NCBI GenBank assembly: GCA_028015205.1
Contig: CM051521.1
Location: 119,792,614-119,856,613, forward strand
Direction of reading: 5' to 3'
Origin: Mytilisepta virgata
Lineage: Eukaryota > Mollusca > Bivalvia > Mytilida > Mytilidae
DNA: 64,000 nucleotides
A program made the position numbers and the translations under genes. The notes below the pieces were generated by a model. It saw only the letters and a program-made list of their open reading frames with translations, ran no database searches and was not told the DNA's origin. Of the stretch, positions 6,093 through 41,500 are shown piece after piece (position 1 is the first letter of the stretch; the number at the start of each line of letters is the position of its first letter).

Positions 6093-6099
6093 GTAGAAT
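6093..6099. other. Left 7-bp target-site duplication (gtagaat) of the 13-kb P-like transposon
   Basis: The heptamer gtagaat directly precedes the left terminal repeat and is repeated exactly at 19209-19215 after the right one. The outer eighth bases do not match, so the duplication is 7 bp. Confidence 0.93.
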
Positions 6100-6133
6100 C
6101 AGAGACATATAATACAAGAGATTGGCAACTCGC
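6100..6133 (+). repeat. Left terminal inverted repeat of the P-like transposon
   Basis: Starts CAGAGACATATAATACAAG and continues AGATTGGCAACTCGC. It matches the reverse complement of 19175-19208 at 30 of 34 positions. The subterminal block atcacgcggccc (6161-6172) also recurs, inverted, near the right end. Confidence 0.93.
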
Positions 6134-6380
6134 ATCAAAGCGCTAGTAATCGGTTTTAAGATCACGCGGCCCTCGAGATTTTACGTGATCTTTTGCCAGT
6201 CCGCCATATTGTTTTACCTGCAAATTTGTCAACACACATCGTAACACAAAATTCCATCATAATTAGCTTTCGGAGAAGATATATTTGAACAAAGTAAGTA
6301 AAATTAATTAATTTTGTTTATGTCTTGTTCATTTTGCTGCTGACACCGACACGGTGTGTTTTAAACTGTTTAATCCGGAG
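6134..6380 (+). promoter_or_regulatory. Left subterminal region: likely transposase promoter and non-coding first exon
   Basis: It contains the subterminal motif atcacgcggccc (6161-6172) and an acgtgatc box (6183-6190). A consensus donor follows at 6294-6299 (GTAAGT after AACAAA). With the strong acceptor at 12760-12761, two bases before the transposase ATG, this predicts a 5' UTR exon ending at 6293 and an intron of 6,468 bp containing the satellite. The transcription start is not identified. Confidence 0.5.
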
Positions 6381-9300
6381 GACAAATATGTACAATTTTC
6401 AGTGTACAGTGACGATGTATGAGAACTTCAGTTTATAGTGCCCCTTTGCCTTTTGATAAAACTTTTTATACAGAACAATTATTTCAATACTATGAATGTT
6501 TTCTTACACCTTTATAATAGAGGAATACCAAATAAAAATAGATTTTGAGAAAATGTTCACCTTTTTGATGAAATTTAACCTTGAAAGTGGACAAATATGT
6601 ACAATTTCTGTGTGACAGTGTATGAGAACTTCAGTTTATGGTGCCCCTTTGCCTTTTGATAAAACTTTTTATACAGAACAATTATTTCAATACTATGAAT
6701 GTTTTCTTACACCTTTATAATAGAGGAATACCAAATAAAAATAGATTTTGAAAAAATGTTCACCTTTTTGATGAAATTTAACCTTGAAAATGGACAAATA
6801 TGTACAATTTCTGTGTGACAGTGTATGAGAACTTCAGTTTATGGTGCCCCTTTGCCTTTTGATAAAACTTTTTATACAGAACAATTATTTCAATACTATG
6901 AATGTTTTCTTACACCTTTATAATAGAGGAATACCAAATAAAAATAGATTTTGAAAAAATATTCACCTTTTTGATGAAATTTAACCTTGAAAATGGACAA
7001 ATATGTACAATTTCTGTGTGACGGTGTATGAGAACTTCAGTTTATGGTGCCCCTTTGCCTTTTGATAAAACTTTTTATACAGAACAATTATTTCAATACT
7101 ATGAATGTTTTCTTACACCTTTATAATAGAGGAATACCAAATAAAAATAGATTTTGAAAAAATGTTCACCTTTTTGATGAAATTTAACCTTGAAAATGGA
7201 CAAATATGTACAATTTCTGTGTGACGGTGTATGAGAACTTCAGTTTATGGTGCCCCTTTGCCTTTTGATAAAACTTTTTATACAGAACAATTATTTCAAT
7301 ACTATGAATGTTTTCTTACACCTTTATAATAGAGGAATACCAAATAAAAATAGATTTTGAAAAAATGTTCACCTTTTTGATGAAATTTAACCTTGAAAAT
7401 GGACAAATATGTACAATTTCTGTGTGACAGTGTATGAGAACTTCAGTTTATGGTGCCCCTTTGCCTTTTGATAAAACTTTTTATACAGAACAATTATTTC
7501 AATACTATGAATGTTTTCTTACACCTTTATAATAGAGGAATACCAAATAAAAATAGATTTTGAAAAAATGTTCACCTTTTTGATGAAATTTAACCTTGAA
7601 AATGGACAAATATGTACAATTTCTGTGTGACAGTGTATGAGAACTTCAGTTTATGGTGCCCCTTTGCCTTTTGATAAAACTTTTTATACAGAACAATTAT
7701 TTCAATACTATGAATGTTTTCTTACACCTTTATAATAGAGGAATACCAAATAAAAATAGATTTTGAAAAAATATTCACCTTTTTGATGAAATTTAACCTT
7801 GAAAATGGACAAATATGTACAATTTCTGTGTGACGGTGTATGAGAACTTCAGTTTATGGTGCCCCTTTGCCTTTTGATAAAACTTTTTATACAGAACAAT
7901 TATTTCAATACTATGAATGTTTTCTTACACCTTTATAATAGAGGAATACCAAATAAAAATAGATTTTGAAAAAATGTTCACCTTTTTGATGAAATTTAAC
8001 CTTGAAAATGGACAAATATGTACAATTTCTGTGTGACGGTGTATGAGAACTTCAGTTTATGGTGCCCCTTTGCCTTTTGATAAAACTTTTTATACAGAAC
8101 AATTATTTCAATACTATGAATGTTTTCTTACACCTTTATAATAGAGGAATACCAAATAAAAATAGATTTTGAAAAAATGTTCACCTTTTTGATGAAATTT
8201 AACCTTGAAAATGGACAAATATGTACAATTTCTGTGTGACAGTGTATGAGAACTTCAGTTTATGGTGCCCCTTTGCCTTTTGATAAAACTTTTTATACAG
8301 AACAATTATTTCAATACTATGAATGTTTTCTTACACCTTTATAATAGAGGAATACCAAATAAAAATAGATTTTGAAAAAATATTCACCTTTTTGATGAAA
8401 TTTAACCTTGAAAATGGACAAATATGTACAATTTCTGTGTGACGGTGTATGAGAACTTCAGTTTATGGTGCCCCTTTGCCTTTTGATAAAACTTTTTATA
8501 CAGAACAATTATTTCAATACTATGAATGTTTTCTTACACCTTTATAATAGAGGAATACCAAATAAAAATAGATTTTGAAAAAATGTTCACCTTTTTGATG
8601 AAATTTAACCTTGAAAATGGACAAATATGTACAATTTCTGTGTGACAGTGTATGAGAACTTCAGTTTATAGTGCCCCTTTGCCTTTTGATAAAACTTTTT
8701 ATACAGAACAATTATTTCAATACTATGAATGTTTTCTTACACCTTTATAATAGAGGAATACCAAATAAAAATAGATTTTGAAAAAATATTCACCTTTTTG
8801 ATGAAATTTAACCTTGAAAATGGACAAATATGTACAATTTCTGTGTGACGGTGTATGAGAACTTCAGTTTATGGTGCCCCTTTGCCTTTTGATAAAACTT
8901 TTTATACAGAACAATTATTTCAATACTATGAATGTTTTCTTACACCTTTATAATAGAGGAATACCAAATAAAAATAGATTTTGAAAAAATGTTCACCTTT
9001 TTGATGAAATTTAACCTTGAAAATGGACAAATATGTACAATTTCTGTGTGACGGTGTATGAGAACTTCAGTTTATGGTGCCCCTTTGCCTTTTGATAAAA
9101 CTTTTTATACAGAACAATTATTTCAATACTATGAATGTTTTCTTACACCTTTATAATAGAGGAATACCAAATAAAAATAGATTTTGAAAAAATGTTCACC
9201 TTTTTGATGAAATTTAACCTTGAAAATGGACAAATATGTACAATTTCTGTGTGACAGTGTATGAGAACTTCAGTTTATGGTGCCCCTTTGCCTTTTGATA

Positions 9301-12300
9301 AAACTTTTTATACAGAACAATTATTTCAATACTATGAATGTTTTCTTACACCTTTATAATAGAGGAATACCAAATAAAAATAGATTTTGAAAAAATATTC
9401 ACCTTTTTGATGAAATTTAACCTTGAAAATGGACAAATATGTACAATTTCTGTGTGACGGTGTATGAGAACTTCAGTTTATGGTGCCCCTTTGCCTTTTG
9501 ATAAAACTTTTTATACAGAACAATTATTTCAATACTATGAATGTTTTCTTACACCTTTATAATAGAGGAATACCAAATAAAAATAGATTTTGAAAAAATA
9601 TTCACCTTTTTGATGAAATTTAACCTTGAAAATGGACAAATATGTACAATTTCTGTGTGACGGTGTATGAGAACTTCAGTTTATGGTGCCCCTTTGCCTT
9701 TTGATAAAACTTTTTATACAGAACAATTATTTCAATACTATGAATGTTTTCTTACACCTTTATAATAGAGGAATACCAAATAAAAATAGATTTTGAAAAA
9801 ATGTTCACCTTTTTGATGAAATTTAACCTTGAAAATGGACAAATATGTACAATTTCTGTGTGACGGTGTATGAGAACTTCAGTTTATGGTGCCCCTTTGC
9901 CTTTTGATAAAACTTTTTATACAGAACAATTATTTCAATACTATGAATGTTTTCTTACACCTTTATAATAGAGGAATACCAAATAAAAATAGATTTTGAA
10001 AAAATGTTCACCTTTTTGATGAAATTTAACCTTGAAAATGGACAAATATGTACAATTTCTGTGTGACAGTGTATGAGAACTTCAGTTTATGGTGCCCCTT
10101 TGCCTTTTGATAAAACTTTTTATACAGAACAATTATTTCAATACTATGAATGTTTTCTTACACCTTTATAATAGAGGAATACCAAATAAAAATAGATTTT
10201 GAAAAAATATTCACCTTTTTGATGAAATTTAACCTTGAAAATGGACAAATATGTACAATTTCTGTGTGACGGTGTATGAGAACTTCAGTTTATGGTGCCC
10301 CTTTGCCTTTTGATAAAACTTTTTATACAGAACAATTATTTCAATACTATGAATGTTTTCTTACACCTTTATAATAGAGGAATACCAAATAAAAATAGAT
10401 TTTGAAAAAATGTTCACCTTTTTGATGAAATTTAACCTTGAAAATGGACAAATATGTACAATTTCTGTGTGACGGTGTATGAGAACTTCAGTTTATGGTG
10501 CCCCTTTGCCTTTTGATAAAACTTTTTATACAGAACAATTATTTCAATACTATGAATGTTTTCTTACACCTTTATAATAGAGGAATACCAAATAAAAATA
10601 GATTTTGAAAAAATTTTCACCTTTTTGATGAAATTTAACCTTGAAAGTGGACAAATATGTACAATTTCTGTGTGACAGTGTATGAGAACTTCAGTTTATG
10701 GTGCCCCTTTGCCTTTTGATAAAACTTTTTATACAGAACAATTATTTCAATACTATGAATGTTTTCTTACACCTTTATAATAGAGGAATACCAAATAAAA
10801 ATAGATTTTGAAAAAATGTTCACCTTTTTGATGAAATTTAACCTTGAAAATGGACAAATATGTACAATTTCTGTGTGACAGTGTATGAGAACTTCAGTTT
10901 ATGGTGCCCCTTTGCCTTTTGATAAAACTTTTTATACAGAACAATTATTTCAATACTATGAATGTTTTCTTACACCTTTATAATAGAGGAATACCAAATA
11001 AAAATAGATTTTGAAAAAATTTTCACCTTTTTGATGAAATTTAACCTTGAAAATGGACAAATATGTACAATTTCTGTGTGACAGTGTATGAGAACTTCAG
11101 TTTATAGTGCCCCTTTGCCTTTTGATAAAACTTTTTATACAGAACAATTATTTCAATACTATGAATGTTTTCTTACACCTTTATAATAGAGGAATACCAA
11201 ATAAAAATAGATTTTGAAAAAATTTTCACCTTTTTGATGAAATTTAACCTTGAAAGTGGACAAATATGTACAATTTCTGTGTGACAGTGTATGAGAACTT
11301 CAGTTTATGGTGCCCCTTTGCCTTTTGATAAAACTTTTTATACAGAACAATTATTTCAATACTATGAATGTTTTCTTACACCTTTATAATAGAGGAATAC
11401 CAAATAAAAATAGATTTTGAAAAAATTTTCACCTTTTTGATGAAATTTAACCTTGAAAATGGACAAATATGTACAATTTCTGTGTGACAGTGTATGAGAA
11501 CTTCAGTTTATAGTGCCCCTTTGCCTTTTGATAAAACTTTTTATACAGAACAATTATTTCAATACTATGAATGTTTTCTTACACCTTTATAATAGAGGAA
11601 TACCAAATAAAAATAGATTTTGAAAAAATTTTCACCTTTTTGATGAAATTTAACCTTGAAAGTGGACAAATATGTACAATTTCTGTGTGACAGTGTATGA
11701 GAACTTCAGTTTATGGTGCCCCTTTGCCTTTTGATAAAACTTTTTATACAGAACAATTATTTCAATACTATGAATGTTTTCTTACACCTTTATAATAGAG
11801 GAATACCAAATAAAAATAGATTTTGAAAAAATGTTCACCTTTTTGATGAAATTTAACCTTGAAAATGGACAAATATGTACAATTTCTGTGTGACAGTGTA
11901 TGAGAACTTCAGTTTATGGTGCCCCTTTGCCTTTTGATAAAACTTTTTATACAGAACAATTATTTCAATACTATGAATGTTTTCTTACACCTTTATAATA
12001 GAGGAATACCAAATAAAAATAGATTTTGAAAAAATTTTCACCTTTTTGATGAAATTTAACCTTGAAAATGGACAAATATGTACAATTTCTGTGTGACAGT
12101 GTATGAGAACTTCAGTTTATAGTGCCCCTTTGCCTTTTGATAAAACTTTTTATACAGAACAATTATTTCAATACTATGAATGTTTTCTTACACCTTTATA
12201 ATAGAAAAATACCAAATAAAAATAGATTTTGAAAAAATTTTCACCTTTTTGATGAAATTTAACCTTGAAAGTGGACAAATATGTACAATTTCTGTGTGAC

Positions 12301-12680
12301 AGTGTATGAGAACTTCAGTTTATGGTGCCCCTTTGCCTTTTGATAAAACTTTTTATACAGAACAATTATTTCAATACTATGAATGTTTTCTTACACCTTT
12401 ATAATAGAGGAATACCAAATAAAAATAGATTTTGAAAAAATGTTCACCTTTTTGATGAAATTTAACCTTGAAAATGGACAAATATGTACAATTTCTGTGT
12501 GACAGTGTATGAGAACTTCAGTTTATGGTGCCCCTTTGCCTTTTGATAAAACTTTTTATACAGAACAATTATTTCAATACTATGAATGTTTTCTTACACC
12601 TTTATAATAGAGGAATACCAAATAAAAATAGATTTTGAAAAAATGTTCACCTTTTTGATGAAATTTAACCTTGAAAATGG
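6381..12680. repeat. Satellite array: 31 near-identical units, period 203 bp
   Basis: The first unit is diverged and 209 bp long (anchor acaatttt at 6392). Every later anchor (acaatttctg) falls at 6601 + 203n, up to 12488, which means no net length change over 29 consecutive periods. A degenerate partial copy continues to about 12715. Units differ at only a few recurrent sites: gac[a/g]gtg, tat[g/a]gtgcccc, aaat[g/a/t]ttcacc and gaaa[a/g]tgg. No frame stays open. The array lies wholly inside the inferred first intron of the transposase gene. Such uniformity points to recent amplification or homogenisation by unequal exchange or gene conversion. Confidence 0.97.
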
Positions 12681-12762
12681 AGTCAGTGTATGACAACTTC
12701 ACATTATAGTTCTCCTAACATGCATTTAGTTTATTATGTTAAATGTACATGTCTATTTCAGG

Positions 12763-15700
12763 ATGCCAAAGAGAAGAAGAAAATCCTCGGTATCTCAGAC
12801 CCAGAAATATAAATGGAAGAAGAAACTGAAACTTGACAATAGCAACTCTGTCATTGAACAAGATCAGCAGTCTATATTACATGTAGATTCCTTAATGACC
12901 GAGATTTTGAACGACGTCCAGCAGAAAACAACAGAAATTGAAACACCTACATGTACTAGTAGTTTGGTTTGTTTTTCACATGATCATGATGATGAAACTT
13001 TTTTGTTTGGCGATAATGAAAGGGACAGTGAGCCAGATATAGAAATAGTAAATTCTGAAAAGGATGCAGACACAGATACCAACACCATGCAGTGCAGTTC
13101 ATCAGTTGATACGTTTACCTATACTTGTAGTAGCACCCAGACCGATAATGATTTTGTTGAACTTTCCACATTTGAAAGACTTGGACAAGAAATCTCTCAG
13201 ACTATCAAGCCGCCGTTTATAGTTACTAGTAGTGCTGATAGTATTAATATCATGGAACTTTATAATGATACTAGTGGGCAGATAAGTGTGAAGCTCTCCA
13301 TTCTTATCCAGACTGACTTTACCACAAAGATTTTTGTACATAGGAAAGAGGTATCTAAAAACCATGATATTTGGACTGGACTATCCACCCTCTTTGACAC
13401 AGCAGATAAGGTCAATCAACTGTTGTTTCGACTCCAGACCTTTTATGTATGTACAGGGAATCCAGATGTTGTATTCCATGACTTAACACCAATTGGTAGC
13501 GGTATTAGTGATGGCTTCACAAATGGTATACGGTGTTACCGTGAAGGAGATTTCAATGCTTCGAAAGGTAGTCTTCTGTACTCATCAACAATAAGGTCTG
13601 TTCATTGTGGACTTCTCGTGAAAGGAAATCGCTGTTCCTTTTGTCAAGATGACCGTCGAATGCTTAGAAAGAGACATACTAGAGCTGAAGAAAAAAAGAA
13701 CTCTCCTTCCGTTAATTATGTGCACACCAAGATTAAGCACAAGAATATGAATAGGGAAAATCTCCTCACAAAAATTAACCAGCAAAACTCAGAACTGAAA
13801 AGTGTTACATCAGAACTGGAGAAGCTTAAACGACAATGTCAGAGAGAAATTTTGCAGAAAGGTTTATCATCAGATAAAGTTCAGGACATTGAATTTAAAG
13901 ACTTGATGTCATCCTGCCATAGCGACATTGTAAAGGCCTACCCTGACCCCAGTTGCCTTCAGCGTCTGTTTTGGGATCAGCAAACCCAGTTTGAGAATGC
14001 AGGAAAAAATGGAATGAGGTGGCATCCCATGATAATTCGTTGGTGTTTGTACATTAGAAACAAGAGTGCGAAAGGCTATGATGCTATGAGAGACTCAGGT
14101 TTTGTGAAGTTACCGAGTACACGTACTTTATTTGACTATTCACATTATACTAAAAGTGCTCTGGGATTTCAAGCAGATATAATGAAAATGCTACATGAGG
14201 AGGCAGATAAATTAGGTATGTAATACTTTTTAAAAATAAATTTTCCTGATAAACTAACATCCATTGTACATGTAATATTAGAAAATCAACCTAAAAAGTA
14301 TCAACTTGAAATTTAAAGTGTAACCTTGTGGATATTCTACGTGTTTTGTACATGTTACCCATTTAACAATGTTGACAATTTATGACAATATTTCAGCCAT
14401 ATCGTGGCAAACCATATTCTATATTTTTTTAACACATATGAAATACAGCATATGCATTGTTAAATGTACATTGCATCATTAGCAGTGACCAACAACAACA
14501 TAAACGGGATGGGCATAACATGTTCATTGTAGCAACAGGCACACATACCGTATTTGTTAATGGGAACACATACAGTATTTGTACATTGACCTATATGATA
14601 TAATATAAATGGCCCAGCATGTATGTGCATATGATCAATGATCATCTTGTTAATATAATTATTATGTAATGTGGTGGTACCAATAGGTACATCTTTTTGC
14701 ATTTATTAATTATTGCTTTAATTTTTTAGGTATGTTTGAAGAAAGCTACAAGAGTTATGTTGGTATCTTATTTGATGAGATAAGGATCAAAGAGGATCTC
14801 GTATACGACAAACATACAGGAGAGTTGATAGGCTATTGCAATTTGGATAGTGTAGGCAACCAGATAATGGAGTTGGAAAAAGTAGTAAATGACAATAAAA
14901 AACATGAACTGGCTAAATTCATGTTGGTTTTGATGGTACGTGGTGTTACAACAAGTTTGAAATTTCCATTAGCTGGATTTGCTACTAACAGTATCACAGC
15001 TGACTTTTTATATCCAATAGTTTGGAAAGCTATTTCAATACTTGAATGCAGATTAAAGCTACGAGTGTTATTTTGTACATGTGACGGTGCATCTTCAAAC
15101 CGAAAGTTCTTTCAGCTGCATAAAATAGACAATAGTCCAGACCCTGTATATTTTACAATAAATCCACATGATGCCAGTAGAAGTATTTATTTCATATCTG
15201 ATGTTCCACATCTGTTAAAAACCACCAGAAATTGCTTTAGCAATTCATATTCTCACAAAAATACAAGACGCTTATGGGTGAATGGTAAAGACATATCTTG
15301 GATGCAGCTAGTCCGATTATTTGAAGAACATTGCGAGCTGGAACTTTACAGTCCATGTCCGAAATTATCCAGAAGTCACATTGATCTGACAGCATTCAGT
15401 TACATGAAAGTTAATCTTGCCGCACAAATTTTGAGTAGCACAGTCGCCAATGCTTTGGAAGAACTATATGATGAAAGTGTCTCAGAGACAGTTAAATTTA
15501 TCAGAAACTTTAACAAATTTTTTGATTGCCTTAATGTTAGAAGTATATACGAAGGTCGTAACAAGAGAAATGACAATTTAAATCCATATACCGATTCCAA
15601 TGATGATCGGCTGGACTGGTTAAAGACTTCTTTTTTGGGTTATTTGGAAGATTGGCACCAGAGTGTTGAAATGAGAGATGACAATCTTAAACAACCACAG

Positions 15701-16027
15701 AAAGCAGCAATGAAGCTGAGTCAACAAACTATAACTGGTTTGAAAATAAGTGTGAATTCCATAACAGAATGTGTGAAATTTATGTTGGAGAGAGGTGCCA
15801 AATTTGTATTGACCAGCCATTTTAACCAGGACCCACTTGAACAACATTTTGGACATTACAGGCACAAAGGTGGAGCAAACAACAACCCAACTGTTTACGA
15901 TGTAAGGAACATGATGACCACACTACGTGCTGTTGGTGCACAGGCCCTTACACCAAAGAGAGGAAACACCCAGGGTAATGATGAGAACCGAGTTTTAGAC
16001 AATACCAAACTACATAGAAGGCGTTAA
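12763..16027 (+). CDS. P-element/THAP9-type transposase, 916 aa, 2 coding exons
   Basis: Exons 12763-14215 and 14730-16027 join in frame (…TTA G|GT ATG…; donor GTATGT, acceptor tttttag). The start at 12763 is chosen because a tttcag acceptor ends two bases before it. The protein begins with a basic NLS-like stretch (MPKRRRK). It then has a C-x8-C-x2-C cluster (C282, C291, C294) and a Leu-rich coiled coil (about 332-362). Next come a P-type region (MRWHPMIIRWCLYIR, LPSTRTLFDYSHY) and an RNase-H-like catalytic core. Candidate acidic triad: D500 (LFDEIRIK), D603 (CTCDGASSN) and E855 (QDPLEQHFGHYR). SDVPHLLKTTRN and GKDISWMQL resemble the GTP-binding insertion of P transposases. It lacks a THAP finger, and it ends soon after the catalytic Glu, without the C-terminal domain usual in THAP9. 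Family membership is from remembered motifs. No disabling mutation is visible. Confidence 0.88.
14216..14729 (+). other. Intron of the P-like transposase gene
   Basis: 514 bp with a GTATGT donor and a T-rich tttttag acceptor. I see no further feature in it. The stop codon met on reading through the donor confirms that splicing is needed to join the DNA-binding half to the catalytic half. Confidence 0.85.
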
Positions 16028-16563
16028 AAGTTAGAATAGACAATTAAATCGAACATTTTATTTGAAATCTTCAACGTTCATATACATGTACATAAACATT
16101 ATTTTCAGTTATTCAGTGTTCTCCCCTCTCTCATAGTTATAATACCATTCTGCTTCAATATTTACCATTGTAAAGGAATAATGTTCATCTTCTACTCATA
16201 TTATTTGCATTGTAGTGCAATAAAAATTGTAAGAAGAGAAATACATAACCACGATATCTACATTTATAAGTGTCATTTGATAAAAATTTTGTTACTGTTT
16301 AAAACCAAAAGATAATGTAATCGTTGTCAAAGGCTCTAAAATTTCTTTCTCACTCTTTGCTATTTACATATGTAGGGAGAACACTCACATTTATTTGATA
16401 TAATATTTCATTATTACTTGACCATTGAACTGTTATATACACTGTATATAGTATTTTGCAATTTTTCAACTATATATTTGTTATACAATGTCATCAAGTT
16501 TAATTTTCATTCTACCTACATTGTGTCATATACTGACTATAATATAAATTTTATATTTTGTTT
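16028..16563. other. Space between the two convergent transposon genes (3' UTRs)
   Basis: This AT-rich 536 bp lies between two stop codons. It holds an AATAAA on the plus strand at 16219-16224, for the transposase, and one on the minus strand (tttatt, 16391-16396) for the zinc-finger gene. The two predicted transcripts nearly meet or overlap here. No open frame is visible. Confidence 0.5.
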
Positions 16564-18787
16564 TTAATTGTTCATATGTTTTTCCTTTAAAGCTTGTCGA
16601 AGACTGCTGGATTTTTTTTTCACAATTACTTTGTCATGCATAGCAATGTTACGTTGCACACGGGTCACTGCATAACCTCGAATTGTCAAAAATAATTTAA
16701 TGATGTCTTCCAGAACACTTAATTGAAGCTGATCATCTATACCTTCAAACAATTTAGAACAATAATGTTTAACCATGAAAGATTCCATAGCACTTTCCCT
16801 CAATTTGTCACACAATAGAGATGTAGCATTTAATTTGGAGCTGTCTACATTTTTTCTAACAACAATCTCAAGTTCACGTACAAGTAGGAAAAAGTTATCA
16901 CATGGCATAATTAGACCACCACGATCATTCTTTTTTGTCCATTTGCTGTATTTGGTAACAAATGTTGTACTGTCTGATTTTGACTTAACCCTATCGATAC
17001 ATTCCATTTTACCACTTTTTTGGTCATCTTTGATTTTAGAGTAATGCTTTGAGCAAGAACGTATAATGTAACCACTTATATAGAACAAAATCTTTTGGTC
17101 ATTTTCAGAAAGCTCAGATTGCTGTTGTTCAGACTGCTTAAGTTCATGTTGTGTCTGTTGAATCAGAACTTGATTGATAAGCTCAAGCATAAAAACCTGA
17201 ATGAAGTTTTTGGATTCACTTTCAGGAAAACCATTGTTACTAAAAAGATCAATGTAACCTTTTTCAACAGTGTTGCTTAGTCTCATTTTGTGGAAACGTG
17301 TAAAAAACATTTCTCTGTCATATGACAAACAAATATTTGAATTGATCCTAAAAATTTCTAAAAAGAGTTTTTGAAAGAAATCTTTTATCTGAACATTATC
17401 TTGAACAGTTTTGGCAATTTTCACAATATCTGATTCACCAAACAAGTTATTAATTGGATCTTCTTGCACACTTATTAATGTATTGTGAAAAGCTTTGTCA
17501 AACACCAAGTCAAGTATGTTGTTCAAAGTACCACCTTGATTATGTTGTTCTGTGACTGTATTATCTATTGTTGCTTCCGTGTTATCTATAGATGTAGTTG
17601 CATCTGTGGTTTGTTTATATCTGTGTTCATGAGCTGTAAATATAATATATTGAAAATTAAAATCTGTATTTACTTGACCATGATTTTCTTTTATTATACA
17701 TTTGAAGAGTGGATTCCAAGTATAAGAAAAGGCAGAATTTCTAGATTTTAAAGAATGCGAAAATGGGGAATTTGAACCTAATTTAATACTCCAGATATGC
17801 ATACAGTATTTCAAAAGTTTATGAAATTTCAAATGATTTATTTTAGCAAATTAAAAATGTTCAGTTGCATGTCCCCAACACGCTTCTGTACAATGCTGAA
17901 GTGAAATTGCTTTTTAAATTGCATACATGTATTACCAGCAAATCAAAAATGTTCAATTGCATGTCCCTAACATGCTTCTGTACAATGCTGAAGTGAAATT
18001 GCTTTTTAAAATTGCATACATGTATTACCACCAAACATGTTGTCTATGTATAAAAGGGATTATATAACACGAAAATTGACTCTACCCTGTGTAGATTAAA
18101 AAGGAAATAAAAACTTGAATCTATGAAAGACAGACAATCTGAGACCAAAATCAATCAAAAGAGCACATCAATTAAGGGGTATTAAAAACTAATAATTATT
18201 TAATTTTGACCACATAAATTTAGTTCTACACATAGACGTATGCAACAATTGTCTTATGTGTCTGTTCTACATGACAATCTATTATCGTATTCTTGAAAAA
18301 AGAATATTTGATCAAAGACTTTAACGTTATAAAAATAAGATTTGAGACTCAACTTAGAAAAACTCCAAACAGGAAAAAAAGAACACAACACAATACCGGA
18401 GTTTAATTTTGAATTATCAAAATAATGAAAACACGTATTTTTTTTCAAATCTATTCAAGATCTTTAAACTAGACATGCGAGAAAAAACAATATAAAAATA
18501 TGCCTACCTTTCAAATTGTGTTTTCCATGTTGCTTGGACGTGTGACCACGAAATCCACTGATTGTCTTGAGAATCTTGTTGCAATCTGGACAAACATACA
18601 TAGAACATTTTTCGGAAGTGTCAATCGGAGGTTTACTTTCTGTCTTTATTTTCTTGGTTTTCTGAACAACAAAGTCGTCGTCGTCTTCATCAACTTTAAA
18701 CTCGTTGTCTGTAAATTCACCGAGAAGAAAGTCTAGTTCAAAATCATTGAGATCGTCGTCCCACGATAAAAAATCGGACTTTGACAT
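16564..18787 (-). CDS. Second transposon gene: acidic + C2H2 finger + P-transposase-C-terminus-like protein, 449 aa
   Basis: Exon 1 is 18787-18508 and exon 2 is 17633-16564. The AAAG|GTAGGC donor and ttatatttacag acceptor join in phase, giving 449 aa. The true ATG is 18787; codons upstream of it in the same frame lack an ATG. Residues 9-40 are very acidic, and KTKKIK follows. One C2H2 finger, C-x2-C-x12-H-x4-H (CPDCNKILKTISGFRGHTSK then QH), ends exon 1. Exon 2 encodes a polar linker and helical segments, then ILFYISGYIIRSCSKHY and DRGGLIMPCDNFFLLV. These resemble the 'Y-I-(A/S)-G-Y' and 'GGL-x-x-P' motifs that follow the catalytic core in THAP9-like transposases. A basic tail ends the protein. 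Possible roles are a DNA-binding accessory subunit or a regulator/repressor; this is inference. Confidence 0.85.
17845..18029. repeat. 92-bp tandem duplication in the intron of the zinc-finger gene
   Basis: Two copies (from 17845 and 17937), sharing blocks such as cttctgtacaatgctgaag and gcatacatgtattacca, are nearly identical. They lie in the intron 17634-18507 and are non-coding. Confidence 0.9.
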
Positions 18788-19174
18788 TACAAAAATATAC
18801 ACGTAAACATGCGTTCAAGTTTGTTAACCAATTAAAATAATAAAAAAGTTTATTTATATTTAAGTAAAACAACGTGTTGAGGGAAGCCATGAATTTTACC
18901 GACAAAAACATCTTATAATTGCATTTGTTTATGCAGAATAAACACTGGTCTTAATTACGTCAATTTATTTTATTAAATTATCTAATAAATGTTTGATCTC
19001 TAACAGTCCCAAGCTATTATTTCACCCGAATCACTAATTATCATTAAGTTGATCAGTTGATTAATTGTTTGTTTACATGTCGTTAGGTGATAAAATATTT
19101 GGTTAATTCCCCTTAATTAAAATCTCGTACGAAACGAAATCCCGAGTGGGGCCGCGTGATATCACGTTATTTCG
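18788..19174 (-). promoter_or_regulatory. Right subterminal region, likely promoter of the zinc-finger gene
   Basis: Sequence between the zinc-finger start codon and the right TIR. It includes gggccgcgtgat (19149-19160), the inverted counterpart of the left subterminal motif at 6161-6172, followed by atcacgtt. No TATA box can be assigned confidently in this AT-rich stretch. Confidence 0.4.
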
Positions 19175-19208
19175 GCGAGTTTCCAATCTCTTGTTATATA
19201 CGTCTCTG
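19175..19208 (-). repeat. Right terminal inverted repeat of the P-like transposon
   Basis: Read inward, the sequence starts CAGAGACGTATATAACAAG and continues AGATTGG, AAACTCGC. It aligns to the left TIR without gaps over 34 bp, with 4 mismatches. Confidence 0.93.
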
Positions 19209-19215
19209 GTAGAAT
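19209..19215. other. Right 7-bp target-site duplication (gtagaat)
   Basis: Exact copy of 6093-6099, directly after the right TIR. Confidence 0.93.
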
Positions 19216-35500: not shown

Positions 35501-38500
35501 TTAACTTAAAAAAACTATAGGTCCGAAGTTAAAATATTTGTTTGTTTAGTTGGGGTTTTACGCCGTTTTCAGCACACTTGGCTATTTCGCGGCGGCCAGT
35601 TTTTATTGGTGGAGGAAGCCGGAGTACCCGGAGAGAACCATCGACCTTCGGTAGGAAAATTGGCAATCCTTGTCAATTAAGATCGGAGTCGAACACACCC
35701 CGCCACAGGTGAGATTCGAACTCACAACCTCAGCGTTGACAGGCCAGTGATCATTAGTAGTCATGACGAACTACCTAGACCACTCGGCCATCGAGGCCCC
35801 CCGAAGTTAATATAAGAAAGTTTTATAAAATTTTCGTGTCAAAATGACCATGCAGTCAATTTAGTAAATTTGGGGTTTTTCTCATTTTTTTTAGAACAAA
35901 GAGCATATAATTTCAACTTCTTTGTTATAAATGATTGGAAAAATACATATTAAAGAATTTTAAAAAGAAAAAATTGATAGGGGTTGTACATATTATTGGT
36001 AAAATCATTTCTTTGTACCGCTCACCCATTTTCTTAACATTTTGGCTTATGACACTGACCAGATTGGTTATAAAATTTGAACATAAATTTATTACTCAAA
36101 AACTACTTATTGTAAGAACATATTTTTTCACAGAGTTTAGTTGGATTATAAAATTTTTTGAATTCATTAATATTTTCCACTTTTATCCACAGGCTCTTGT
36201 CTCAGAAAAAAAAATTAGTATATATGCCAAGAGAAAAGAAAAGGTCCCAAACTCCAAAGAATTATCGCTTCCACATTTCGGTCTCGCTCAAAACTTTTGG
36301 ATCAATAAAAAAATATTAATTTATCAACACAATGATGTATGACACGCCTACCTTACTTGCCAATCAACAGCGCTATAGCCATGTGAAATCGGTCAAAAGT
36401 GAATTATTGATCACTACTACAATGAACTGCAAATTTGACAAGGGTCAAATGAATTGCTGCCTTCTAATTGGCTAACTCAGTATGCCAAAATTAAAATATG
36501 GAAACTAGAGTATAAATTTATAAATAGAACACCATCAACTCATCAAATGTAATGGATTTATTTACCAGCAGCGATTTATTATTACTTCTTCATACCATTG
36601 TTTATCAATTAATTAATCATGACAAAAGAACAAATAATTAAATTTTGTAAACAGTTCATTTTCTTTATTTTAATTTTTTTTAATTTGCTCCTTGTCTTCA
36701 ATTTGCAGTTCATTGTAGTAGTGATCAATAATTCACGTTTGACCGATTTCACATGGCTATACATGTAGCGCTGTTGATTGGCAAGTAAGGTAGGCGTTTC
36801 ATACATCATTGTGTTGATAAATTAATATTTTTTTTATTGATCCAAAAGTTTTGAGCGAGACCGAAATGTGGAAGCGATAATTCTTTGGAAATCGAAGCAG
36901 GCATGTAAAATTGTGTTGCCAGAGTTGGTGACCTCTTCTTTTCTCTTGGCATAGGGGAAATCCATGCAATTGCGGACAGTTTTCATTAGTCGGCCTCGTT
37001 TTTGGGTATTGTGTTCTATTGGAACTAATTGTTTTTATATCATTGAATGAATCCAACAGAGGGGTTCCGAAAAAACAGATTTCCCGCCCTTTTATTGACA
37101 AAGAGATGGTCGCGAATGTGGAAAATTTTATATTTTATAAGTAAACAAAGTCTTTCTTTTGCGGACAGTGGTATTGCAATTGCGGACACCAGGTTTTAAA
37201 ATGCGGACAGTTTAGATATTGTATTTAGAGTTTGAATTTAATGTGTTTTTTTCAATCTTTATGGAACAATCAGCAAGTGGGTAAATAAAATATGATTTGG
37301 AGAAACAATTAACATTTATTTTAGTTGGATATACACCATTCAGTTGGCTAATTTCTTATTGCATGCATATGACAGTTCAAACCCATTTCACCGATTTTTT
37401 TGTTTTTTGTTTTTTTGTTTTGTTTTGAGACATTTGTTTTGTTCAATTTTTTTCTTTCTTTCCCTTTTGTCTGCTTCCTTTTCTTCCTTTTTCTTTGCAA
37501 TGTTTTCTTTTTCCCTAAGAATCTCGAAAGATGTCAACAGGCGGTGAGATTTACTTTTTTTCAATGTTTTAACGTTACATGTATTTTCAGATAAGGGTAG
37601 TGCCGGTGAATTATTTGGGGTGGCAGCTGGAGGAAGAAATAATGTCTCAATTTCCGAGTTCCAATTTGTTGTTGTCATAGTCATTGTTTCGGGCTTGCTT
37701 TCCTCTACTAGTTTAGCCCTATGTGTCAAAAGCAAATCCATTAGATACTCAGGCTTTTCAATCTCCGGAGGTTGATTTGGGTCTGATGGAAATAAAGAAA
37801 GAATATCATTGGGTGAAGAGACCTGGCTCTCTAAAGAAGATTCAGTCTGAGTTATGTCTAAGTCAACAGATAGTAGTGTTTGTTCGGCGACGGACTGTTC
37901 TTGATAAGGAGAAGTTATATTCGTACAAGGTAGAATATTGTTTTGAGATTCTGATGGTGATGACGTTGGATTAGTTATAGTAGCTGGTGGTTTGGTCATT
38001 ACTGCTGATGGTGCCGATATATGCTCATGGGGAACATCGGTTGGGTCGCTTGGTTGAAAAGCTGATGCTGGAATAACTGTCGGATTTAAGGGAAATATTC
38101 CACACGCCTTAAAACCGGATTTAATGTTAGCAGCCGTGAAAGACATTTCCCATGCAGTTTTGAAAAGAGCAGGGAATGTCCATTTGTTAACTTGGTGTAA
38201 GGTGTTTTCTTGAAGAAACTCTGCACAGGCAGTATTAAATGCGTTATTAAATGGCCCAAAAACACACTTGTCAAGTGGTTGTAACTGTTGAGTAGTGTGG
38301 GGTGGCAACGACAAGAGTAAGATGTTGTTTTCAATTGCAGCTGAAATGAGACCAAGAGTCTCGAGGGATGAATGCCCGTCTAAAATTAACAATTGTGGAC
38401 GGCCATCTCCACACTGTTTTAAAAAAACTTCTCTAAACCATTTTTCACCGATGTCATCGGACATCCACCCAGATTCCTGATATGCCCAAATAGTTCCTTT

Positions 38501-41500
38501 TGGGACTGCCTCAGTGTTATAACCATATACAATTTTTTGGTTTTTCCTTTTGCAATTAGCAAAGGACTCATCGTTCCACCAGCCGCGCTTACACATGCCA
38601 TTATTGTAACATGCTGTCTGTTTGCTGTTGTTTTTCCTGGAACCGGCCTCGAACCTTTTTCTGCAATCACCTTAATTGGCTCATGTTCAAACGGTTTTCC
38701 CGTTTCATTGCAATTCCAAATAGCAGTAGGCTTATCTAACAAATTTTCCCTAGTCATAATAGAAGCCAGATCTGTAAAGTAATTTTTGACTATTACGGGA
38801 TTCATCATCCTACATCTCAAACTGGTAAGTTTTTCCGGCTTACAGATTGTTAAATCAGAGTGTCACAACTTCATTTGTTGCCAAAATTCTTTTCCTGGTA
38901 TGGAATTTTTAAACTGTGTTTTAATTTTTAATCTTTTGCATAGGGTGCCAACTCTAGTTAAAAGTTGTTTTCTCGTGATTCCCACGCCTAGCTTTGCGGA
39001 ATGCTTTAGAGACTTGACTATTTTGTTTTCCAAATAAACCGGCAACGAGGGTTTTCTGCCTTTCCCTATCCTTGTAATCTCCCTTTTCCCACTAACTCTA
39101 TCTCCTATAGTTGATTTTGGTACGTTGTAATGAATGGCGGCTTTCCTAATTGACATCTCCCCATTTCCAACCTTTTTTACAGCACAGGAAGTGTCAATCA
39201 AGAAAGACTTTTTACATGCTGCGTCGGATACTCGGAACGCTACAAAGATTCGTTTTAAAAGATCAAAATTCCAGATATATGTATTGGAGGACACCTGAAA
39301 TTGGTACAAGAACTTATAGGCGACTGGTATCACTAAGCGAATAGAACACTTATATATACCAGTTTACGGCAAATTTTAGTTAAATGTTTTCCCTCTAAAT
39401 ACTATTAGTTTTGGTATCAATACCCATAGGCTAGAATGAAATGCTTTTAATATACATGTAATTAAAATTTGTCTTATGGGCCCGAGTATCCGAATACACT
39501 ATGTGTTTTACTGAGGTTTGGATGGGGCTTCAATGTTCAATATCCCAAAATTTGTTACTATTCATAATTAATGTAAAATATGTCCATAAACTTTTTTAAT
39601 TGTTAATGTTGATTAACCGATCAATGGCTTAATAAAAGCTTGTATATATGCACTAAAATTCATCAATTTATTATCAGAATTTATCCAATTATTACATAAT
39701 ATTAATCCCATGAACTTTTTACAACTTTGTCTCCTATCAAACTTAGATGTTCACAAATTTCTCTGTCAAATTTTTCATAGATGGTAATAAATGTCTTTGA
39801 TACGAAGACAATACTTTGATCAAAATCATTATTTTCCGAACAACTTAATTCCAAAAATAATTTTGCTGCAATGTCATTTGCATTTATCAATTTTTCAAAG
39901 AGGTACACAAGCGGATGAAGGCTCTCAATTTCAAAGAGTATATCTTCATTGGCAAGTTTCTTTAATTTTCCACAAGCAATAATCTTGATCATATTTGATT
40001 TTTTTCCTACTTCCCTGTTCTGATATTCCTTTATTAATGACATTTTCTGCAAATAACAAAGAACTTCAAAATATAGTACCTGACGTATGTGTTTTGAACC
40101 GTTTTTGCAAAAGGCAACTGAATCAGCTTATTGTTAAAGACTTCATGGTGATTTCAAGATGAAGAACTACAGTCAAAGCTTCGTTCCATGTTTGTTATCA
40201 TTGATTTATTGGGATGTTGTCTCATGTACATCAGTACTTTTATTTTTCATTGACGAAACCAAGGCCTAAAAAAAAATATAGTTGTGTTTAGGGTAACCTG
40301 ACCCTACCTAATTTTTAGTGCCTACCCTAAATTTTTTATAACCTTTCTTCAACAAGCACTGATAAAGTCAAGGTGACTCCAGTATACAACCTAACTAAAA
40401 AAATTAATGTAAAAAAAAAAATTTCCCTACCTACCCTACCTAACTTTTTTCAGTGTGTCACCCTAAACACATGTATTTTTTTATTTGGCCCAATGTGTGA
40501 AAATGGGTTTAGACAGATTCTATTTTTTCTTGAGCTATGCTTGTATAAGCAAAAAAAATATACGCAGTATCATATATTGTAACATCATTATATTGTTCCA
40601 ACTTTTACCCTAAATTTTATATAATTTTTTCTTCAACAAGCACTGTTAAAGTCAAGGTGACTCCAGTATACAACCTAACTAAAAAAATTAATGTAAAAAA
40701 AAAAATTTCCCTACCTACCCTACCTAACTTTTTTCAGTGTGTCACCCTAAACACATGTATTTTTTTATTTGGCCCAATGTGTGAAAATGGGTTTAGACAT
40801 ATTCTATTTTTTCTTGAGCTATGCTTGTATAAGCAAAAAAAATATATGCAGTATCATATATTGTAACATCATTATATTGTTCCAACTTTTCAGTTTAACG
40901 ATAAATAGATTTTTAAAATCAATATTATTCCGATCAAAAGCCCTGTACCACACGGTACTTGTGTTTACTTTATGTCATATTGACTTGTAATGATTATATG
41001 ATGTTTTGTACGGGTTGCTTTTTTGAATATGCATGTTTATGGGAATTCAATGTCCGCATTTAAAAGACCGCAATTTTATCCGGTCTTCAAATTGCGGACA
41101 GCCATACTTTTTATATTTTCATAACAAAACAAAATGTATTTCTTTAATAACATATAAAAAATAGTATAAGAGGTGTTTTTGCATATATTGGTGTTTTAGT
41201 GCATATTTCAAACATATACGTACCCTAGAATACTTGTCTCAAACTATTGGGTATTGTTTTGAAAATTCCCGGTCTTTACACTTCAAGGGTGCAAAAGGTC
41301 ATAAACAGGAAGTGACACGTGATTTAGTTTCAATTATTTATTTATATTTGTTCGAACTTAGTCAAATGCAAATAACTATTATAACACATTTTATATTTAT
41401 TTTCAATACTCACCTTGCAAATTTCAAGTACAACTTTATTTTACATAAAAATAGACGTAAAATACCAAAAAAACCGAAATGTCCGCAATTGCAAGCTGTC

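Follow-up and report, generated by a model that had tools for sequence, protein, structure and literature searches.

A P-superfamily transposon of the mussel Mytilisepta virgata with a transposase probably divided between two convergent genes

The Drosophila P element is about 3 kb long and moves by a GTP-dependent cut-and-paste reaction with 17-nt staggered ends, and its transposase has been described as one protein with six domains. P-element families comprise few complete copies and more internally deleted ones; KP elements are Drosophila P-element derivatives, with which we compare deletion copies below. In the RAG recombinase, the RAG2 partner is a Kelch/PHD protein. Here, we analyzed a 64,000-nt stretch of Mytilisepta virgata (the window; contig CM051521.1, here C14, positions 119,792,614 to 119,856,613 of the forward strand), from a genome of 1.03 Gb in 109 contigs. 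The window holds a 13,109-bp element (6100 to 19208) with two convergent genes, gene 1 on the forward and gene 2 on the reverse strand. We consider it probable that this element is an autonomous cut-and-paste transposon of the P superfamily, whose transposase is divided between the two genes.

Compared with the Drosophila P element (PDB 6p5a and 6pe2), the mussel element shares a catalytic core with a GTP-binding insertion, a resemblance to the C-terminal domain (CTD), and inverted and subterminal repeats, with the unequal spacing at the two ends that the Fig. 4 legend of PMC7776569 gives for P-element binding sites. Unlike the fly element, it has two genes, a zinc finger joined to the CTD, a target site duplication (TSD) of 7 bp instead of 8 bp, and a length of 13 kb with an intronic array, and a THAP domain could not be detected in it. 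Galileo, a member of the P superfamily in Drosophila, likewise has TSDs of mostly 7 bp according to passages of PMC4168063, which, however, also describe long terminal inverted repeats (TIRs) with internal repetition and a transposase that bears THAP; in the mussel element, the TIRs span 34 bp and the array lies inside the element, and an assignment to Galileo was therefore rejected. Zebrafish Pdre2 and THAP9 have the P core, with short TIRs and 12-bp subterminal repeats (parts of PMC10983969), but carry THAP and CTD in one chain and have an 8-bp TSD. RAG1L-RAG2L transposons of, for example, oysters and mussels also have a convergent gene pair flanked by TIRs and a TSD (PMC7204232); their core is a different one, and in the mussel element it is a piece of the transposase itself that the second protein resembles. 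Membership among the RAGL transposons was discarded for want of a RAG1-like catalytic subunit, and that among canonical P elements because both a THAP domain and an attached CTD were looked for and found absent. No two-gene P element was described in the titles and beginnings of abstracts found, although one may be catalogued in Repbase, outside this search; the portion of PMC13228809 that describes sea cucumber THAP9-like genes has nothing of the two-gene kind.

The left TIR (6100 to 6133, forward strand) starts with CAGAGACATATA, and the right TIR lies at 19175 to 19208 on the reverse strand, supported by end comparison, genome matches and a shuffle control. In a scan of 2,500 by 2,500 end pairs, these TIRs were the single pair reaching at least 30 of 34 identities, and no such pair arose in 20 mononucleotide shuffles. 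The initial annotation reported 34-bp TIRs and a perfect 7-bp duplication; the TSD, GTAGAAT, is indeed identical at 6093 to 6099 and 19209 to 19215, but the TIRs agree at only 30 of 34 positions and are thus imperfect. TIRs with a 7-bp TSD, as in the P superfamily, were present in five of the five copies with both ends located, although in one of them, on contig C13, the TSD had served as a search criterion and is therefore weaker evidence. An Rfam scan of the window gave no match reaching the gathering score.

A second copy, on contig C23, is 10,239 bp long and has matching ends, other flanks and its own 7-bp TSD, CTATTAT. Over 6,514 aligned bases, which start immediately past the array and reach the right end, it is 99.08% identical to the window copy, and it keeps identical splice sites and open frames for both genes. 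The coding differences amount to 8 synonymous and 5 non-synonymous changes in gene 1 (ratio of non-synonymous to synonymous rates, dN/dS, 0.157) and to 5 and 4 in gene 2 (0.189). As judged by these comparisons, the element has been mobile recently. DNA of the right end gave 26 genome matches including itself, a few being opposite ends of the same copies, and 23 of the 25 others end at query positions 417 to 429 (own end, 421). Two deletion derivatives, at C14:77.795M and C11:70.548M, were read whole; they measure 4,931 bp with TSD GTGGTAC and 3,425 bp with TSD ATAAAAC, have 34-bp TIRs that agree at 34/34 positions, and lack most of gene 1 and the gene 2 CTD, while retaining gene 2 exon 1 DNA with its frame broken. 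The initial annotation had held that a regular absence of either gene from other copies would refute its reading, and this was seen in part: among the right-end matches, a catalytic domain lies nearby only in the window and on C23, and the two derivatives have lost the parts just mentioned, whereas these two intact copies (family A) and one copy of a second family (family B, below) keep both genes. The derivatives are faintly KP-like; in some other copies, exon 1 of gene 2 stays open.

Gene 1 comprises 916 open codons across the junction 14215/14730. Open frame, Pfam and homologues place the N-terminal region and the start of the core in its first coding exon (12763 to 14215); Pfam, alignment and a homologue model place the RNase H fold with the GTP-binding insertion in the second (14730 to 16027). 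The junctions of both genes are matched by homologous proteins that read through them. Three Pfam domains score above the cutoff in gene 1 (the TNP-like N, GTP-binding and C domains), and the structure model of a homologue matches P transposase. The DDE triad corresponds to D500, D603 and E855; among 121 aligned sequences, the first column holds D in 120 (one N), the second D in 119 (two gaps) and the third E in 109 (11 gaps, one K). By its catalytic core, an RNase H fold with TNP-like domains and a DDE triad, the protein belongs to the P superfamily. It ends 61 residues past E855, where the disordered linker of the Drosophila enzyme begins, and, unlike a canonical P transposase, it has no CTD in the same chain. 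Such a fusion was not found among relatives either: in a search of 146 proteins with the gene 2 profile, none of the 120 gene 1 homologues matched at an E value of ≤10. THAP (PF05485) was absent at E ≤ 1 from both proteins in the Pfam scan, and its precomputed annotation occurs in 5 of the 120 listed gene 1 homologues. Separately, the N-terminal region appears to be a beta-rich domain with a Cys motif conserved among homologues (RS..C.LL..G.RC..C), and TTAGGTATGT is present at both splice sites of the coding intron (14212 to 14221 and 14726 to 14735).

Gene 2 has 449 open codons across the junction 18508/17633, with both exons defined by open frame and homologues. Exon 1 (18508 to 18787, reverse strand) encodes an acidic N terminus and a zinc finger, and exon 2 (16564 to 17633, reverse strand) encodes residues 94 to 449 and the stop codon. 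The C2H2 zinc finger (residues 64 to 87; 18527 to 18598, reverse strand) scores below the Pfam cutoff, with 15 of 20 members at E ≤ 0.1. By structure and profile, the region of about residues 265 to 428 (16630 to 17121, reverse strand; range transferred by hand from the model of homologue P0001) resembles the P transposase CTD. With PF12596, the profile of this domain, gene 2 of the window stayed below the cutoff (E = 0.0064; 17.5 bits versus 22.6 required), P0001 reached 22.0 bits, and the best member had an E value of 2.3e-4. The CTD-like region has the fold of 6p5a_B; this match surfaced solely through VIA re-alignment of Foldseek's best 1000, Foldseek itself giving no match of the gene 2 model at E ≤ 0.001, and phmmer with gene 2 against PDB found nothing at E ≤ 10. 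The full-length gene 2 profile (A1) matched 14 sequences, mostly zinc finger proteins and with no P transposase among them. Of its 16 invariant columns, 15 fall within the CTD-like region, a result toward which N-terminally truncated rows bias the count. PF22824 is precomputed for many gene 2 homologues and is absent from the rows of the Pfam scans made here.

The initial annotation had proposed a P-like element that is complete and seems intact, with a convergent pair of open genes whose splice sites restore the frame, a satellite, and a transposase lacking THAP, and had suggested a search with P-transposase Pfam families. The P-family domains, the homologue model, the ends and the second insertion with its own TSD bear this out, as do the homologues and the C23 copy, which agree with the junctions, and the satellite proved to be carried by the element itself. 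What it missed was the nature of the second gene, whose C-terminal half resembles the domain absent from gene 1.

The gene pair recurs elsewhere. Family B, at C13:74.98M, is an element of 8,454 bp with TSD CTCTACC and ends that also read CAGAGACATATA; its two genes are convergent and show identities to those of the window of 51 to 75% (gene 1) and 61 to 65% (gene 2). For a second family B copy, at C10:14.45M, the examined part begins near the end of gene 1; the left end was not in the 501 bases examined, and the genome search gave no catalytic-domain match there. Convergent pairs were also seen at C5:10.98M, where a long gap interrupts gene 2, and at C10:67.26M, where gene 2 contains stops, whereas at C6:49.15M the zinc finger exon is all that remains of gene 2 near gene 1. 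No credible TIRs were found for these three loci (100 bp searched on the right side of C5), and one candidate at C6:49.15M was judged to be a chance match. The closest named proteins come from Mytilus and other bivalves. In other bivalves, 6 of 42 distinct gene 2 homologues lie on a contig exactly equal in base pairs to that of a listed gene 1 homologue (P0002/P0029, P0012/P0034, P0011/P0030, P0008/P0039, P0015/P0040 and P0025/P0067), as judged by size. One such contig measures just 11,931 bp; the M. galloprovincialis genes LOC143055246/LOC143055247 form another of the pairs.

Both termini of the element carry ATCACGCGGCCC, as an inverted pair at distances of 62 bp (left end; 6161 to 6172, forward strand) and 49 bp (right end; 19149 to 19160, reverse strand). 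Family B has TTATCGCGGCACT at positions 61 and 49; the motif letters differ, and the places are nearly identical. These repeats may be the sites bound by the gene 2 zinc finger.

In the mechanism that we propose, gene 1 would provide the catalytic subunit, with a helix-turn-helix region, the RNase H fold with its GTP-binding insertion and the DDE triad, and gene 2 an accessory subunit, in which an acidic segment and a single C2H2 zinc finger are followed by a helical middle and a P-type CTD. The zinc finger would recognize the subterminal repeats, replacing THAP in tethering, and the CTD of gene 2 would dock in trans on the core, between the RNase H and the neighboring GTP-binding domain, a slot occupied in the fly enzyme by the tethered domain. 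The joint complex might then pair the ends, cut and reinsert with a 7-bp stagger; transposition would be expected to need gene 2.

The main rival reading, regarded here as unlikely, is that gene 1 is sufficient and that gene 2, built from a detached CTD and a zinc finger, acts outside the complex as a regulator, either an activator or a KP-like repressor. Several observations weigh on its side and against ours. The CTD is likewise missing from the gene 1 homologues listed for acorn worms, abalone, brittle stars, Hydra and Exaiptasia, and the homologue listings, which do not cover the surroundings of the loci, gave no named gene 2 homologue from these animals. Moreover, many copies without gene 1 keep exon 1 of gene 2, which is open at, e.g., C3:18.85M, C6:26.34M, C13:39.66M, C15:2.81M and C13:96.31M. 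However, exon 1 stands in two different frames in the two derivatives read whole, and the exon 2 remnants of most such copies carry stops; therefore, these copies need not make protein. Gene 2 also resembles exactly the domain that gene 1 is without, which counts against a regulator-only role, as does the clustering of A1 invariant columns in the CTD-like region, with the bias given above.

It seems highly improbable that gene 2 plays no part in transposition, whether as a passenger or as a gene captured from the host. The Pfam scores of gene 2 below the cutoff leave room for this, as does the fact that its role is a prediction, and both points again tell against a divided transposase; nevertheless, the convergent pairing in two element families and on same-size contigs of other bivalves, the P-CTD resemblance and the low dN/dS, though resting on few changes, oppose a passenger. 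From the long internal tandem array and the large size, one might suspect an assembly artifact or two unrelated elements, one nested in or joined to the other. This explanation is scarcely credible, as the C23 copy, with other flanks and a TSD of its own, agrees in layout, splice sites and ends, and family B shares the layout.

More tentatively, and with somewhat less than even confidence, the divided transposase may extend to a whole metazoan P branch of obligate two-subunit recombinases, with core and CTD separate, convergent genes and a zinc finger reading asymmetric subterminal sites. This branch would be a counterpart of RAG1/RAG2, possibly with an intronic array of about 200 bp periodicity as a conserved regulatory part. 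A natural split at the flexible linker, if confirmed, would mean that the CTD is able to act in trans, would offer separable parts for biochemistry, and would add to the cases, such as RAG-like transposons, in which two convergent genes make up the element. Such a split would also account for several mussel proteins that are labelled THAP9 and have no CTD, the missing piece being the neighboring gene, annotated as an uncharacterized C2H2 protein.

A putative 5′ untranslated region intron of gene 1 (6294 to 12761, forward strand; donor after 6293, acceptor before 12762) was predicted from sequence, and its donor also occurs in the C23 copy, with a similar one in family B. Inside it lies the tandem array (6380 to 12681, forward strand), with 31 units of 203 bp; the C23 copy has 17. 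The unit has 101 genomic matches, in 18 places by our own tally; 13 of these places lie no more than 10 kb from a match to an end, a gene or the catalytic domain of these elements. Family B carries a 202-bp array at the equivalent place, and its unit has a 42-column core in common with the 203-bp unit (score 57, versus a maximum of 29 in 200 shuffles). In 304 kb scanned around loci picked for P-like genes, which makes the result a lead and not a test, five arrays with a period of 185 to 210 bp were found, all upstream of gene 1 (window, C23, C13, C5 and C6). Across several element families, the period upstream of gene 1 is kept at 193 to 203 bp while the unit sequence varies, and the C5 and C6 units have no clear match to the 203-bp unit. 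The sixth two-gene locus, C10:67.26M, has no such array.

Stretches like gene 2 exon 1 (about residues 2 to 98) appear genome-wide in 36 rows with 37 to 51% identity, many in open frames of 110 to 130 amino acids; paired loci account for at least two of them (C5:10.9996M and C10:67.26M), and the others probably represent further element families. P-like TNP genes whose open frames span 886 to 888 amino acids also lie at C13:68.94M, C13:87.83M, C13:87.92M and C12:73.45M; that at C13:68.94M is 26% identical to gene 1 and has no gene 2 match within the 10 kb examined. Finally, broken frames on the reverse strand of the window (37388 to 39363) show a by-eye likeness to a pogo-like DDE transposase.
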